A stretch of DNA of 49,539 nt from a bacterium (GTDB taxonomy: Archaea > Thermoplasmatota > Thermoplasmata > Lutacidiplasmatales > UBA184), in the NCBI GenBank assembly GCA_027309555.1, contig DAIDCO010000004.1, positions 1 through 49,539 of the forward strand, written 5' to 3'. Below are positions 4,088-24,276 of the stretch, one piece after another. How positions within the stretch are numbered: the first letter of the stretch is position 1; every line of letters starts with the position of its first letter. Under the pieces are notes generated by a model that had not been told where the DNA came from, ran no database searches, and was given only the letters and a program-made list of their open reading frames with translations. Both the position numbers and the translations under genes were made by a program.

Positions 4088-4247
4088 GGGAGCATAGGCT
4101 AATCTGGTAGACCAGCGGGCTCCAGTCAGGGCGGTCGGTCGACCCCCTGGGATTAGGGTCTGCGGAGGGGCGCACTGCGCCCCCATGACGAGTGACTGGA
4201 GCGCGCGGAGAGACCCGCATATCGGGGTTCAAATCCCCGTGCTCCCA
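4088..4247 (+). tRNA. tRNA-Trp (anticodon CCA) with an 87-nt intron
   Basis: A full cloverleaf is visible. The acceptor stem is GGGAGCA (4088-4094) with TGCTCCC (4240-4246), and the discriminator is A4247. The D-loop carries GG (4106-4107). Anticodon stem GCGGG (4115-4119) pairs with CCCGC (4214-4218). Anticodon CCA is 4122-4124, and the T-arm is CGGGG-TTCAAAT-CCCCG (4223-4239). CCA is not encoded. The D-stem has one C-A mismatch (positions 12-23). The two halves of the anticodon arm are separated by an intron after position 37, the usual archaeal site. Mature length is 73 nt. Confidence 0.92.
4126..4212 (+). other. Intron of pre-tRNA-Trp with a segment antisense to the anticodon loop
   Basis: Splice sites are predicted at AG^T (4125/4126) and AG^A (4212/4213). 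In this model CTCC (4120-4123) pairs with GGAG (4207-4210), leaving 3-nt bulges, as in the bulge-helix-bulge substrate of the archaeal endonuclease; the inner helix beyond it is weak. The intron also holds TGACTGGAGC (4193-4202), a perfect 10-nt complement of GCTCCAGTCA (4119-4128), which spans the anticodon loop and the 5' splice site. It follows a near-consensus box C (ATGACGA, 4185-4191). In haloarchaea the tRNA-Trp intron is a box C/D guide RNA; here I see no convincing box D, so that role is only a possibility. Confidence 0.65.
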
Positions 4248-19314: not shown

Positions 19315-20064
19315 CTATACCTCGAGGTAGTGCCTCGCTCCTTCGATCAGGAATCGGATGTCCGATGCCAGGGAGATGAACCGGAACCCGAGATCGACGG
19401 CGGTCTTCTTCTCCTCGGGGTCGACGATGAGCGTACCCGGGACCTTCCCGTGCCGTTCACAAGCTTCGACCACCCTGCGCATGGCATCGTGCACTTTCGG
19501 GCTCTTCCGGTCGTCAAGGAGGCCCAAACTCAGGGTCAGGTCTTGCGGTCCCACGAAGAGCAGGTCGAGGCCGCTGACCCCCGCGATGGCCTCCAAGTGG
19601 TCGAGGGCCTCCCGGGTCTCGATCTGAACCCCGACCAGGGTCTCGGCGTTCGCGCCACGGAGGTAGCTCGCGAGGTTCGTGCCGTAACGGGAGGCCGCGG
19701 AAGCGGCCGCTCCCCGAACACCATCGGGAGGGTACTTGGAATAGGCCACCGCCGCCTTCGCCTGAGCCTCCGTGCTGACGAGAGGGGCCAGGATCCCGTG
19801 AGCCCCCGAGTCGAGGGCCTGCTTGATCAGGTACTGGTCGACGTCCCCGACCCGAACCAACGGGGAGGGACCCCCTTCGGCGAGGATCGCCGTCATCGCC
19901 GCGAGGGTCTCCGGATTCACCTGCGCGTGCTCCGTATCGATCACGAACCAGTCGAAGCCGAGCCCCCGGATCGCGTCGAGCGCGACGAACGAGGAAGCGG
20001 AGATCCAGGATCCGAACGACAGCTGCTTCGAACCGAGCAATCGGTCCTTGAGGGAATTCTTCAC
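19315..20064 (-). CDS. HpcH/HpaI-family class II aldolase
   Basis: This 249-residue TIM-barrel aldolase is of the HpcH/HpaI (2-oxo-acid aldolase/citrate lyase beta) family. Visible landmarks are FGSWISASSF at the first strand, DWFVIDTEHA (active-site region), GAHGILAPLVST, the metal Glu in VGVQIETREA and the metal Asp in LLFVGPQDLTLSLG. Such enzymes cleave 4-hydroxy-2-oxoacids to pyruvate and an aldehyde with a divalent metal. The exact substrate is unknown. The GTG at 20064 fits a TATA-like AAACGTATTC near 20100; the longer frame to 20127 would start at or before that element. It lies in the accessory stretch downstream of a tRNA-derived repeat. Confidence 0.85.
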   Translation of the reverse strand: MKNSLKDRLLGSKQLSFGSWISASSFVALDAIRGLGFDWFVIDTEHAQVNPETLAAMTAILAEGGPSPLVRVGDVDQYLIKQALDSGAHGILAPLVSTEAQAKAAVAYSKYPPDGVRGAAASAASRYGTNLASYLRGANAETLVGVQIETREALDHLEAIAGVSGLDLLFVGPQDLTLSLGLLDDRKSPKVHDAMRRVVEACERHGKVPGTLIVDPEEKKTAVDLGFRFISLASDIRFLIEGARHYLEV

Positions 20065-20157
20065 CGAGGTTACCGAACCCTCAGCGGGCGCCGGGGAGAA
20101 TACGTTTCCCCCCGCCAGAGCCCACACGGACCCGAAAGAAGGATCGAGGGTTCGGAA

Positions 20158-20228
20158 GTGGACGGGTCGGGATTCCCTGGCTTGCGAAGCGGAGGAGTTT
20201 CAGGAAACCGGTTCGTACGTCCCTCTAC
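20158..20228 (-). repeat. tRNA-derived repeat, copy C (71 nt)
   Basis: On the minus strand it opens GTAGAGGGACG and ends AATCCCGACCCGTCCAC. The end matches the tRNA-Ala 3' acceptor (AATCCCGACCAGTCCA) at 14 of 16 positions, and the GTAGA opening matches tRNA-Ala positions 7-11. It aligns without gaps to the 71-nt copies at 21790-21860 and 23167-23237; by hand 52 of 71 bases agree with the 23167 copy. The bases just upstream (AGGTGGG) can still pair with CCCGTCC as a decayed acceptor stem. Confidence 0.6.
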
Positions 20229-20448
20229 CCACCTTTGGCATCGAAGAGCCCCCGGCTCGGTTGAACTCGTCGAGCGTCCGTGGTCCTCCTGCTGGTTGTC
20301 GCGACGCCTCTTGTCGTGCGCGAGCATAGAGCACGAATGCTGCGCGTCCGCGAGCTTTCGGATGAGGAGCCCTCCGCTGGGCGATCCGTCGGCTCAGTCG
20401 GATCCACTGTCTGACCAAGCCCCGTCCCGCACACCCCTGACGGACGGG
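20229..20448. other. Non-coding gap upstream of repeat copy C
   Basis: No gene is seen between the repeat and the 3' end of the M29-like gene. Open frames here are short and lack motifs. Confidence 0.35.
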
Positions 20449-21570
20449 TCACGAGAGGAACTTTCCGCCACGGACAATGGGAGTCCCGTCGATAGAGATC
20501 TCGGAGCCGGCGAGACAAAACCAGGTAAAGAAGTTCGATCCGTTGGTGCCTCCAAGGCCGCGGTTCCCCCCGATCGCCAGGGAAACGCAACCGCGCTCCC
20601 ACTTCTCCAGGTTGGGGACGTCCTTGACGGCCGGATTCAGCCCGAGGGTGAGCGCGCTGGCCCGGTCCTTGCCTGCCGTGCCGCTTGCGTACTGACGCGC
20701 AAGTTCTCCCGAGCCATCCTCGATGGAGTACGACGTGAGCTTACCATCAGCAAATTCGACCGTCGCGCCGGCGTGCCAGTTCCACCAGATATTTGTCCGG
20801 CGGTTAGCGTGAAAGCGCCCCTCGGCGGTGTCGGAGTCCAGGATGACATCGACGAAGCCGGCGGGGATGTTCGTCAACATTCCGGAATCGCTCGAACCCC
20901 TGTCCCACGGTTGGGGTCTTCCGTCTTGCATCCGGGGAGCGACCCCCGCCAAGGCGACTTCCAGGTCGGTTCCGTTGGAGTGGGTGATCCGAACCCTCTT
21001 TCCGCGTGAGAGTACCTTGCTGAGCCTAGTCCCGCTCTTAGCTATCTCCTCGGGGTCGATCAGGGACGCCCTCAGAACCTTCTCCTCCCATCGGGCACGG
21101 TCTAGACCCCACCTCCGAGCCCGTCCCTCTGTCACGAAACCCGTGGTCATCCGTACACCGCGGAGGCCCGTCTTCCGAGCGACCGCGTACCAGGGCCAGT
21201 TCCAGGCGAACGCTTCGTCGCCCGTTTTATCCGGGATCCTCTCGAGGCGGTCGGTATCGGCGGGACCCCAGAAATTCACGTAGACGTCCGCGGCTTTCAA
21301 CGCCGCCCACTCCGGGGCGCTCGACCTGCCGAGGAGCTTGCTCTGCTTCCGGTCGATCGCGCGCCACCACGAGTCTTCGTCGTTGTAGATGAGAAGCGCG
21401 TTCCCGTCCACTCGGCGGACCTCATCGAGCATCGCCGTGGCCATCGGCAATGTGTGGTTCCATGACTCGATGATCACGTTCTCTCCTGGTCGGACCTTGA
21501 GATACTTGGACACGATGTTGCGGGCAGCTTCGCGCTGAAGCTTCGAGGGGGATTCCGCGCCTTCCGACAT
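20449..21570 (-). CDS. M29 aminopeptidase (AmpS/PepT) homologue lacking the metal ligands
   Basis: This 373-residue protein aligns over its whole length with the M29 leucyl aminopeptidase family: N-terminal ENVIIESW, middle HSNGTDLEVALAG, then the catalytic half with NIPAG, TAEGRF and NRGLGG. In active members Glu follows the Pro-rich turn (here Phe239), a His lies in the TVHIA-type strand (here Ser330), and a C-terminal HxD is present (here FFTWF, 347-351). All these dinuclear-metal ligands appear replaced, so peptidase activity is unlikely and the protein may bind rather than cleave peptides or another ligand. Reading is intact, so it is not a pseudogene. ATG 21570 is used; GTG 21576 is equally possible. 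Confidence 0.75.
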   Translation of the reverse strand: MSEGAESPSKLQREAARNIVSKYLKVRPGENVIIESWNHTLPMATAMLDEVRRVDGNALLIYNDEDSWWRAIDRKQSKLLGRSSAPEWAALKAADVYVNFWGPADTDRLERIPDKTGDEAFAWNWPWYAVARKTGLRGVRMTTGFVTEGRARRWGLDRARWEEKVLRASLIDPEEIAKSGTRLSKVLSRGKRVRITHSNGTDLEVALAGVAPRMQDGRPQPWDRGSSDSGMLTNIPAGFVDVILDSDTAEGRFHANRRTNIWWNWHAGATVEFADGKLTSYSIEDGSGELARQYASGTAGKDRASALTLGLNPAVKDVPNLEKWERGCVSLAIGGNRGLGGTNGSNFFTWFCLAGSEISIDGTPIVRGGKFLS

Positions 21571-21744
21571 ATCCACTGTCCCGCTATGTGAGACGTGAAG
21601 AGACGATAACCGATTTGAATCGGTAGGTGAAGGAGAGAATACCTATCCGGAGTCCGAAAGGGACTCACCTCCCCACGACGAGGCGTAGACCGTGCGTCGG
21701 GCACGCTCCGCGCGGCCGACCCTCGACCTGCGCGCTGATCCGGT
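21571..21744. other. Intergenic, promoter region of the M29-like gene
   Basis: An AT-richer patch (GGTTATCG, minus strand, near 21612) could be the TATA element of the M29-like gene. Nothing else is recognised. Confidence 0.3.
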
Positions 21745-21860
21745 CCCGCCATCGGCCCACGCACGTCGTCCGGCCCCGCGGGCGTCGACATGGCCCGGTC
21801 GGGATTCCTCGACAGGTGAGAGCAAGGACCCGGTGAAACCAGGAGCACGCGTCCCTCTAC
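21745..21860 (-). repeat. tRNA-derived repeat, copy D (71 nt) plus 45-nt flank
   Basis: The core 21790-21860 reads GTAGAGGGACGC at its 5' end on the minus strand and GGAATCCCGACCGGGCCAT at its 3' end. It is the same length as copies B and C. Beyond it, 21745-21789 continues to match the 3' flank of tRNA-Ala at 24130-24175; over about 56 aligned bases I count roughly 43 identities with one gap. So the duplicated unit included both the tRNA 3' end and its downstream DNA. Confidence 0.6.
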
Positions 21861-22044
21861 ACTTCGTCAGTTTCTCGGGGAAACAGAAGCCGCAGGGCCC
21901 GCCCCACGTGGTCCAGAGTTACTCGGTCGATGGAATACGGGCGCCCGTGCACTGATCACGGTCCCATCATCGATCGCGCGCAGCCTTCAGGGAGACTTGT
22001 CGCTCGGAGCGCATTTCATTAGTGCAGCCTACTTCCGGAAGGCC

Positions 22045-22443
22045 GTGCTCGACCATCTGAACGCATACGCTCTGAGCGTTCGCGATGTGAAGAAATGTGC
22101 CGAATTCTACCGGGACAAAATCGGACTGAAACTCATGGAGCTTCAGGACGAGTTCGCCTACCTGAAGTTCGGAGACAAGCCTGGGCCTGGGGTCGCCCTA
22201 GTCTCCGCAGCGGGTCTCGCCCGAGAGATTCCTAAGGAAAGAGTGCGACCCGGCGAGAGCCTTCTCCAACGCAACTACTTCGCTGTTTTCCTCGACGACG
22301 CGGACCGGGCCTATGAGGAGTTACGACAGAGAGGAGTTCGGTTCGTGCAGCCTCCGGCGACTCGAAGCAACGGACAGCGGTACGCTTTTTTCGAAGATCC
22401 TGAGGGGAATCTCTGGGAAATATCCCACTTTCCTAAGGAGTAG
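22045..22443 (+). CDS. VOC/glyoxalase-fold protein
   Basis: From the GTG at 22045 this is 132 residues with two VOC modules: LDHLNAYALSVRDVKKCAEFYRDKIGLKL, FAYLKFGDKPG, NYFAVFLDDADRAYEELRQRGV and FFEDPEGNLWEISHF. The first-strand His, YFAVF and the C-terminal Glu are in the places used for metal binding in this superfamily. It may be a lyase, dioxygenase or resistance protein; the substrate is unknown. The TTG at 21997 would add an ill-fitting N-terminus. With the DinB-like gene it forms the content of the interval between repeat copies D and B. Confidence 0.8.
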   Translation: MLDHLNAYALSVRDVKKCAEFYRDKIGLKLMELQDEFAYLKFGDKPGPGVALVSAAGLAREIPKERVRPGESLLQRNYFAVFLDDADRAYEELRQRGVRFVQPPATRSNGQRYAFFEDPEGNLWEISHFPKE

Positions 22444-22496
22444 GACGAGATGGCTCCCCGGGAAGTTCATCCGAAACCGTCCGCGACTTCTGTGGC

Positions 22497-23045
22497 GTGC
22501 GGGAGGGGACCGTGAGGAAGGTACGGCCGCCCCGGAAGGTGACCGAGGCTGAGCTCGCGCGAGCGTGGATTGAATGGCTGGTGGACACGCGGCCCGGGTA
22601 TCTGGAATCCCTGCTCGCGCTCTCTCAGAAAGAGCGGCTCAGGGATCGGGGGGCCTCCTTCCCGTCGATTCAGGACATCTTCCTGCACATTTTGGACAAC
22701 AATGTCTGGTGGCTCGAGAGCGTGCCCCAGAATCGCCAGGAGTCCCACCGAGGAGTGAACGGTCGCCTCTCCGATCCCGAAATCAGAAGGCAGGTCCGCC
22801 GGATCGCGCGGCTAAGCAGGAAGCTCGCGAAGTCGCTTACTCCGTCTCGACTCGACCGGAGGTTCGTGGTCCGGGGTGTCCAGGGCAACGGCAAGCCGTA
22901 CGAGATCAAGATGAACCTTCGAACGATCATTTGGCACATGGTGGAAGAGGAACTGCAACATCGGGGGGAGATGAACGCCCTCTTCTGGCAGATGGACGTC
23001 GACGCGCCGACACGAGCCTGGTTCAGTAGCGCACTGGCCGAGTGA
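22497..23045 (+). CDS. DinB/YfiT-like four-helix metal-binding protein
   Basis: This 182-residue helical protein has the DinB-superfamily His pattern: one His in the second helix (IQDIFLHILDNNVWWLE), and His plus Glu in the last (IIWHMVEEELQHRGEMNALFWQ). These would form a nickel or zinc site as in DinB and bacillithiol or mycothiol transferases. In archaea the cosubstrate thiol is unknown. It may start at 22497 or the GTG at 22512. It follows the VOC gene by about 50 bases on the same strand, so the two may be co-transcribed. Confidence 0.75.
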   Translation: MREGTVRKVRPPRKVTEAELARAWIEWLVDTRPGYLESLLALSQKERLRDRGASFPSIQDIFLHILDNNVWWLESVPQNRQESHRGVNGRLSDPEIRRQVRRIARLSRKLAKSLTPSRLDRRFVVRGVQGNGKPYEIKMNLRTIIWHMVEEELQHRGEMNALFWQMDVDAPTRAWFSSALAE

Positions 23046-23128
23046 GCATGCCTACTTCGCCACGACTCTCGGGGGTGCGCGAACCGCAGGCTTCGGGACT
23101 CGCCCCCCCCGCGCTGACTGCGGCCAGG
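23046..23128. other. Intergenic, nothing recognised
   Basis: A short GC-rich gap lies between the DinB-like gene and repeat copy B. Confidence 0.3.
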
Positions 23129-23237
23129 TAGTCGGTCGCGCGTCGCCCGACCCGGCGAAGGTCGCAATGGACTGGTTGGGATCCACAGACTTGTGGAGCG
23201 GAGGAGTCCGGGAAGATCGTTTCGTGCGTCCCCCTAC
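23129..23237 (-). repeat. tRNA-derived repeat, copy B (71 nt) plus flank
   Basis: The core is 23167-23237. The segment 23129-23182 aligns with 24135-24190, the tRNA-Ala 3' end and its downstream flank, with about 47 of 56 positions identical by hand, including ATGGACTGG and CGACCCGGCG. The 5' part (minus strand GTAGGGGGACGCACG) matches copies C and D rather than tRNA-Ala itself. Confidence 0.65.
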
Positions 23238-23389
23238 GCGTGGTCCAGCTCCCGGGGGAATGGATGGTGCCAAGAGCTCGGTAAGAAGTCCAGAGTCACC
23301 GTGACGAGAAAGGAGGGGGGGACTACCGGCTCCTCGCGGTTGGATTTCCGAAGGTGCGTTACGGTCGTGGAATCCGATGAATAGCCGGC
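23238..23389. other. Intergenic gap between repeat copy B and the acetyltransferase gene
   Basis: No gene or RNA is recognised in these 152 bases. Confidence 0.3.
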
Positions 23390-23998
23390 TTAACTCCGAC
23401 GACTCCAAGCGGAGGAGACCCGATTGGCGGGTCGCATTTCCTTTCGCAGCAGCCCAAACAGTACCATGTCCATGCACTTCCCCTTCACGCAAACCGCCGC
23501 GCGCTCTCGGCCCTCCTCAACAAATCCCAACTTTCGGAGCACCCTCAGCGACGCGATGTTGCGATCCAGTGCCTGGGAGGCTATCCTACGCAAGCCGAGT
23601 CGCTCGAACGCCTCCCGACACAGGAAGTACGATGCTTCGGTCGCGTACCCCTGGTTCCAAAAGTGGGGGTCGATCCAATACGAAAGGCTCTCAACTTTCT
23701 GGTGCGTCCAGCTGAGTCCCCGCAAACCAATCCGACCGATGCACTTTCCGGTCTCACGATGGACAACGCTGAGAGAGAGGTGCTCGCCCCTCCGGTACTC
23801 GCTGCGCGTGCGAGAGACCATCGCGACGGGGTTCCGCATCTCTTGCTTGGAGTGAAGTGGAGCGCCTACCGCCATAGCCGTGCGAGGGTCGCGCAAACTG
23901 CGCCGCAGATCGGGAACATCCTGCCGAGAAGGCAGACGAAGGATGAGACGAGGGGTCTCGATCGGAAGGCGAACCTTTGCCAGCCTCGGCGGCACCAT
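23390..23998 (-). CDS. GNAT-family N-acetyltransferase (RimJ/RimL-like)
   Basis: This 202-residue acetyltransferase has the RimJ/RimL layout: IETPRLILRLPSRQD at the start, GKCIGRIGLRGL, VESLSYWIDPHFWNQGYATEA (motif A, acetyl-CoA pyrophosphate loop QGYATE), and the C-terminal LDRNIASLRVLRKLGFVEEG typical of this group. It would transfer acetyl from acetyl-CoA to a protein N-terminus or a small amine; the target is unknown. The ATG at 23998 (MVPPRL) or 24007 are both possible. It is the only gene between repeat copy B and tRNA-Ala. Confidence 0.88.
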   Translation of the reverse strand: MVPPRLAKVRLPIETPRLILRLPSRQDVPDLRRSLRDPRTAMAVGAPLHSKQEMRNPVAMVSRTRSEYRRGEHLSLSVVHRETGKCIGRIGLRGLSWTHQKVESLSYWIDPHFWNQGYATEASYFLCREAFERLGLRRIASQALDRNIASLRVLRKLGFVEEGRERAAVCVKGKCMDMVLFGLLRKEMRPANRVSSAWSRRS

Positions 23999-24175
23999 CG
24001 CGATCACTCCGCCTACGCATCTCGAATCAAAATCCTATGGGGCCCTTCTCGAGGTACCCAACGGCCGAGCCGTGGAGCGTTGCAGAATCTCCGCCACGCG
24101 CGGGTCTCGCTCTCGCGTGGTCCCGACAGCCCGCTAATCGGTCACGCGCGTCGCACGACCCGGCGTCTGTCGAAA

Positions 24176-24249
24176 TGGACTGGTCGGGATTTGAACCCGA
24201 GGCCTCCGGTTTGCAAAACCGGCGATCTTCCGGACTGATCTACCAGCCC
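24176..24249 (-). tRNA. tRNA-Ala (anticodon UGC)
   Basis: A complete 74-nt cloverleaf is read on the minus strand. The acceptor is GGGCTGG/CCAGTCC with the G3-U70 wobble that marks tRNA-Ala, and the discriminator is A73. The D-arm is GATC/GATC, the anticodon arm CCGGT-TTTGCAA-ACCGG with UGC at 34-36, and the T-arm TCGGG-TTCAAAT-CCCGA. No CCA is encoded and there is no intron. The GCA triplet one base further along is not the anticodon once the 7-nt loop is framed. Confidence 0.95.
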
Positions 24250-24276
24250 ATCCGGCGGACACGGACGCCCGAGGGT

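Follow-up and report, generated by a model that had tools for sequence, protein, structure and literature searches.

What are three short repeats behind a tRNA gene, and how did they come to be there? The question is raised by a contig of 49,539 nt from an uncultured Thermoplasmata archaeon (GTDB lineage Lutacidiplasmatales, UBA184; GenBank assembly GCA_027309555.1, contig DAIDCO010000004.1), the whole of which is referred to here as the window. In it, three 71-nt repeats, R1, R2, and R3, lie downstream of the gene for tRNA-Ala(TGC), all of them on the minus strand, which is also that of the tRNA. An earlier note on this DNA had described them as copies of exactly equal length derived from tRNA-Ala. 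We propose that they are very probably the attachment (att) sites, of the attP and attR types, of three elements that a tyrosine recombinase integrated serially at the tRNA-Ala 3' end.

The repeats align with each other without gaps over their whole length, with 52 of 71 identical positions for R1 and R3, 43 for R1 and R2, and 42 for R2 and R3. This is far above the background of such alignments in the window (about 19 ± 3.7), where the top unrelated position in 49.5 kb reaches 39. The equal length and common orientation given in the earlier note were confirmed. Their relationship to the tRNA is more restricted. The match of the repeat ends to the 3' acceptor is present, and it comprises the final ~14-16 nt only (core TCCCGACCAGTCCA). 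When both strands of the window were searched for the 14-nt 3' end of the tRNA with up to two mismatches, only tRNA-Ala itself, the three repeats, and one stray site near 14.6 kb were recovered. The 56 nt upstream of the core, on the other hand, match the tRNA at 15, 9, and 13 positions in the three repeats, where about 15 are expected by chance, but match each other at 30-40 of 56. Thus, the derivation from tRNA-Ala stands for the core and fails for the remainder, which represents an attP arm (the P arm), and the correspondence once seen between the opening GTAGA and tRNA positions 7-11 is a coincidence. The tRNA itself is intact, and is the sole RNA family matched by Rfam near the repeats; at E ≤ 1, no family other than the tRNA was found at the repeats themselves.

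On the other side of the core, the following 45 nt behave differently among the sites. The flank of the tRNA, R3, and R2 share 25-30 of 45 positions with one another, with chance at about 13. The tRNA flank agrees with R3 at 26 and with R2 at 30 positions (expected ~13 ± 3), which upheld the previous observation that two of the copies continue for some 45 bases into the flank of the tRNA. R1 has no such homology, with 12 of 45 positions against the tRNA flank and 11-15 across all comparisons, and this absence is the informative detail of the pattern. Read along the minus strand from the tRNA through R3 and R2 to R1, the joints are B-core-P', P-core-P', P-core-P', and P-core-B', so that copies of the tRNA 3' end mark the far boundaries while the tRNA remains whole, and the arms are exchanged at the core as in hybrid att sites. 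Repeated site-specific insertion at a single attB yields such a reciprocal exchange, and neither a duplication nor an RNA model would produce it. The P' arms additionally carry GACGYRYG, a motif that is related to GTAGRGGGACGYRYG and has the same orientation; lying within ~35 nt on the far side of the core, it is a possible second arm site. As for the equal length of the repeats, which the earlier note took to suggest constraint or a shared mobile unit, it reflects the fixed distance between the arm motif GTAGRGGGACGYRYG and the tRNA-identical core, not a conserved RNA.

The array would have been built as follows. The recombinase would bind the tRNA-identical core and probably also the arm site GTAGRGGGACGYRYG, about 55 nt away. 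Recombination would then take place between the tRNA and the core of an incoming element, which is identical to the 3' end of the tRNA; the tRNA would be restored in the process, and each arrival would push the earlier elements outward. Because of this displacement, internal joints would be made of P arm, core, and P' arm, and the last joint of P arm, core, and host DNA. The tRNA-proximal unit A is presumably the newest and the tRNA-distal unit C the oldest.

Each of the three intervals holds different DNA (Table 1), and the G+C content of the units is 0.61-0.64 vs 0.68-0.71 in the surroundings. Neither tblastn nor profile searches in all frames gave a credible integrase trace in any of the three units. 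Even though they resemble tRNA-targeted elements, they are thus integrase-free and not autonomous members of that class. Relatives of their cargo exist elsewhere: M29-like genes standing alone in other Thermoplasmata are 73-81% identical to that of unit C, and glyoxalase/VOC-DinB pairs of congeners are 72-83% identical at the DNA level to that of unit B. In one congener, G092, the homology spans the VOC gene up to window position 23117, ending 3-4 nt short of the P' arm of unit B, so the arms abut gene-derived DNA directly. A search for the same cassettes elsewhere returned cargo genes only, without att arms. In another congener (G083:C75, L241 1-1449), a VOC-DinB pair lies directly behind tRNA-Ala(CGC), on a contig that ends before any closing core or att site is visible.

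Table 1. Features of the array behind tRNA-Ala(TGC) in the window, named according to the interpretation proposed in the text.
Feature	Position	Strand	Details
tRNA-Ala(TGC)	24175..24250	-	attB (target of insertion) and joint on the tRNA side; 3' end carries core TCCCGACCAGTCCA
P' arm beside tRNA	24130..24174	-	26/45 to R3, 30/45 to R2, 12/45 to R1; blastn E 1.6e-10
Unit A, 1008 bp, tRNA-proximal	23167..24174	-	Bounded by cores in tRNA and R3
Unit A cargo: GNAT acetyltransferase, 205 aa	23390..24007	-	PF13302, E 3.7e-26
R3, attP-type joint	23167..23237	-	Arm motif GTAGGGGGACGCACG at 23223-23237; core 23168-23181
P' arm behind R3	23122..23166	-	Cargo homology to G092 ends at 23117
Unit B, 1377 bp	21790..23166	-	Bounded by cores of R3 and R2
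Unit B cargo: DinB-family protein, 182 aa	22497..23045	+	PF05163, E 2.9e-8
Unit B cargo: glyoxalase/VOC protein, 148 aa	21997..22443	+	PF00903, E 6.6e-19
R2, attP-type joint	21790..21860	-	Arm motif GTAGAGGGACGCGTG at 21846-21860; core 21791-21804
P' arm behind R2	21745..21789	-	30/45 to tRNA-side arm
Unit C, 1632 bp, tRNA-distal	20158..21789	-	Bounded by cores of R2 and R1
Unit C cargo: M29-like aminopeptidase, 375 aa	20449..21576	-	PF02073, E 5.4e-7
R1, attR-type joint into host DNA	20158..20228	-	Arm motif GTAGAGGGACGTACG at 20214-20228; core 20159-20172; P arm without P' arm
Host gene on far side: HpcH/HpaI aldolase	19315..20127	-	PF03328, E 5.4e-36

With blastn, the three copies remained the only ones in this genome, and 60 relatives gave no convincing match. 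An exact search for the pattern of arm, spacing, and core in 78 congener genomes returned the three window sites, one in G033, and two more in G010 and G017 that are probably chance matches; four sites of the tRNA-Ala type are known in all. The G033 site is located 7.2 kb behind tRNA-Ala, where it closes the far end of an integrative element (L082 6078-13315) coding for a primase-polymerase, a serine resolvase, and a 465-aa protein, P0001, whose gene starts ~60 nt behind the tRNA. It has the same arm motif GTAGRGGGACGYRYG at nearly equal spacing to the core. One gap is needed to align it with R1-R3, while GTAGAGGGACGCATG, GCACAAGT, and the core are kept, and it matches R3 at 49 of 70 positions. 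The copies in relatives sought by the earlier note are therefore represented by this site, together with analogues of unrelated sequence at other tRNAs, and its suggestion of a shared mobile unit instead of random decay is borne out.

P0001 belongs to a family that is nearly invisible to Pfam (PF00589, E 0.06) and is matched by a PHROG integrase at E 4e-10. Its invariant residues are R162, K212, R301 (with YxxR replacing HxxR), H324, and Y332, and its predicted fold (mean predicted local distance difference test score, pLDDT, of 82) matches those of archaeal XerA, Cre, IntI, and lambda integrase, so on catalytic residues and modelled structure it is a predicted tyrosine recombinase. The family is present in 31 of the 78 congeners and in 33 of 120 genomes sampled from the class; the viral contigs searched with P0001 gave no match. 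At most of the 30 loci inspected, the stretch retrieved has a tRNA next to the family member, and this tRNA usually comes immediately before the integrase gene. The recombinases of G033 and G095, which are each other's closest relatives (77% identical), both lie directly behind tRNA-Ala(TGC); the right end of the G095 element was not found before the end of its contig. The genome of the window, a fragmented assembly of 114 contigs that is 90% complete, holds six tyrosine recombinases of this family, with different members behind different tRNAs (contigs include C103, C31, and C18; L103, L178, and L161). The closest of them (C31, 49%) is preceded by a displaced 3' end of tRNA-Arg(CCG) (L178). 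On C18 (L161), an integrase gene is found directly behind tRNA-Arg(CCG), and an in-frame TAG was reported in it in one comparison. Together, these two loci probably represent another site of tandem insertion in the genome.

Small units of this kind are not confined to tRNA-Ala(TGC). The downstream side of the fetched tRNAs was scanned for copies of their own 3' ends, a scan whose antisense control gave 0 matches in 46 tRNAs. In the genome of the window, tRNA-Met (G000:C76, L158) is followed by a 0.65-kb unit encoding an antitoxin and a ParE-type toxin and closed by a 23-nt copy of the core, and tRNA-Thr(GGT) by a 6.6-kb unit. G033 has two tandem units of 0.66 and 0.92 kb at tRNA-Thr(GGT), whose joints share TTTGAACCCATAGCTCA before the core, two more of 2.4 and 3.6 kb at tRNA-Met, with a nucleotidyltransferase and an AlkZ-like glycosylase, and a single diphthamide-synthase-like 1.6-kb unit at tRNA-Ala(CGC). 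In G022, tRNA-Leu is followed by one 2.1-kb unit with a ParE-type toxin. No credible integrase was found in the units at these other tRNAs of the three genomes. Some of the single-copy cases are weak by themselves (E 0.001-0.02); the strong cases are the tandem units that have arms in common. Near-identical downstream arms, TTGGTCCAAGGGTNCGTATCCGTTGACG, also occur behind tRNA-Thr(GGT) (C41, L142) and tRNA-Thr(CGT) (C11, L147); an integrase follows on C11, and none was found on C41.

Since the units have no recombinase and yet keep both arms, the simplest reading is that an autonomous tRNA-Ala element supplied the enzyme that moved them in trans. We hold it with modest confidence, as probable, that they travelled as integrase-free circular cassettes inserted by a recombinase such as those of G033 and G095. 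Cassettes are favoured by the likeness of the three P' arms, by units that are all small and of comparable size with their cargo intact, and by the presence of such units at other tRNAs as well. Several observations weigh on the other side. For archaeal elements that lack an integrase, gene loss is the usual explanation (PMC8371274); the P' arm of the G033 element is unlike those of the window; none of the six family members in the 90% complete genome sits at tRNA-Ala; and no exact empty site was found in relatives, the closest view being that of G083, where tRNA-Ala and the HpcH/HpaI aldolase gene are 1.8 kb apart, the array is absent, and metal ABC transporter genes occupy the interval. Taken as a whole, stacked insertions of integrase-free cassettes are likely to be the best explanation of the locus.

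The same gene loss would be at work if three autonomous integrative elements had inserted in tandem and later shrunk through deletion of their integrase and replication genes, leaving a decayed additive island. We regard this, the main rival, as unlikely, even though loss after integration is the accepted explanation in archaea, autonomous elements of 7-13 kb occur at tRNAs of the genus, and decayed integrases with in-frame stops exist. Autonomous elements have the integrase as their first gene, ~45-150 nt from the tRNA, and decay would therefore need three independent deletions, each taking away the integrase but leaving both att arms and the cargo in place. No credible integrase trace was found in the three units, their P' arms are alike despite no integrase gene following them, and small units of this sort are also seen at other tRNAs. 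If a single segment downstream of the tRNA had been duplicated locally in tandem, this would account for spaced direct repeats on one strand, but it has next to no chance of being correct, given unrelated DNA in each interval, an upstream repeat part that is not tRNA, and the reciprocal arm pattern.

Two further explanations turn on what kind of sequence the repeats are. Arrays of small gene units that have a single recombination site apiece and no recombinase in the vicinity recall in outline the integrons, which are reported in archaeal metagenome-assembled genomes of nine phyla (PMC9668308), and their cassette clusters without a neighbouring integron integrase (CALINs), and the toxin-antitoxin cargo of the sister arrays adds to this likeness. 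In that case the repeats would be attC sites, a possibility to which we give almost no credence: the RYYYAAC and GTTRRRY boxes are absent from R1, R2, and R3, the core is a tRNA 3' end, and no common fold was found, as the folds of the individual repeats differ and their RNAalifold consensus is weakly supported (1 of 11 pairs covarying). Unlike integrons, the sites here consist of a core and arms, and the tRNA takes the place of attI. Membership in the integron/CALIN class was rejected for want of attC boxes and of a conserved folded single-strand attC structure. The repeats might otherwise be tRNA-derived, as copies similar to short interspersed nuclear elements (SINEs), as tRNA pseudogenes, or as a tRNA-like regulatory RNA, which would fit the 3' end match and a length close to that of the tRNA (71 vs 74 nt). 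This is extremely improbable, with 56 of 71 nt at chance level against the tRNA, Rfam silent at the threshold given above, the covariation just mentioned, and the exchange of P' arms left unexplained. An RNA reading was likewise rejected, the tRNA being all that Rfam finds and the consensus fold being weak.

The DNA behind tRNA-Ala(TGC) differs at all 30 congener loci compared. With three units at one tRNA and this variation between relatives, the locus fits the additive flexible genomic islands (fGIs) of bacteria, where a tRNA is the target for serial cassettes (Alteromonas fGI1, PMC4119200; 'Ca. Methylopumilus' fGI-2, PMC10872708). The three units described here share with them the conserved tRNA target, the serial cassettes, and the repeated occurrence of the terminal ~20 nt of that tRNA; in 'Ca. 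Methylopumilus', cassette sizes down to 330 bp are reported (PMC10872708). Unlike those islands, this array is archaeal, with tandem units of single-gene size whose conserved P and P' arms keep a fixed spacing, and a congener has an autonomous element that matches it and encodes a recombinase. In archaea, tRNA-targeted elements in tandem are known, as are the pieces of tRNA that integration leaves behind (PMC6563490, PMC9897764), and elements with intact, non-suicidal tyrosine recombinases (PMC6563490, PMC8371274) also use the tRNA 3' end, short direct-repeat att sites, and the same site in tandem. However, they are defined by carrying an integrase, with cryptic ones of at least 2.6 kb, whereas the units of the window carry none and are smaller. 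Tycheposons and hitch-hiking elements (PMC10872708, PMC11389934) are similar as tRNA-anchored cargo of tyrosine-recombinase elements whose transfer depends on helpers; tycheposons are reported as 4-200 kb long with a recombinase at the tRNA, and any helper relation of the window units is putative.

Compared with the open-access literature, what seems new is the occurrence in Thermoplasmata of tandem, integrase-free units of one or two genes with conserved attP arms, next to a matching autonomous element. A wider reading, possible but doubtful, is an integron-like stacking throughout the genus: tRNAs would capture, single chromosomal genes would become integrase-free cassettes with attP arms, and tRNA-specific recombinases of resident or visiting plasmids would insert and excise them in trans. 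If the cassette interpretation is true, this archaeal group could add genes one at a time at safe sites with no need of a complete mobile element, which would help to account for the differences among species of the genus in the DNA that follows a tRNA gene. It would also be a caution that, in genomes of this sort, short tRNA-like repeats may mark joints of recombination and not RNAs, and with a matching recombinase and att sites in hand, the idea is directly testable in vitro.

Elsewhere in the window, at 4088-4247 on the plus strand, there is a tRNA-Trp(CCA) gene with a long intron (87 nt according to ARAGORN), which scores above the Rfam tRNA threshold.

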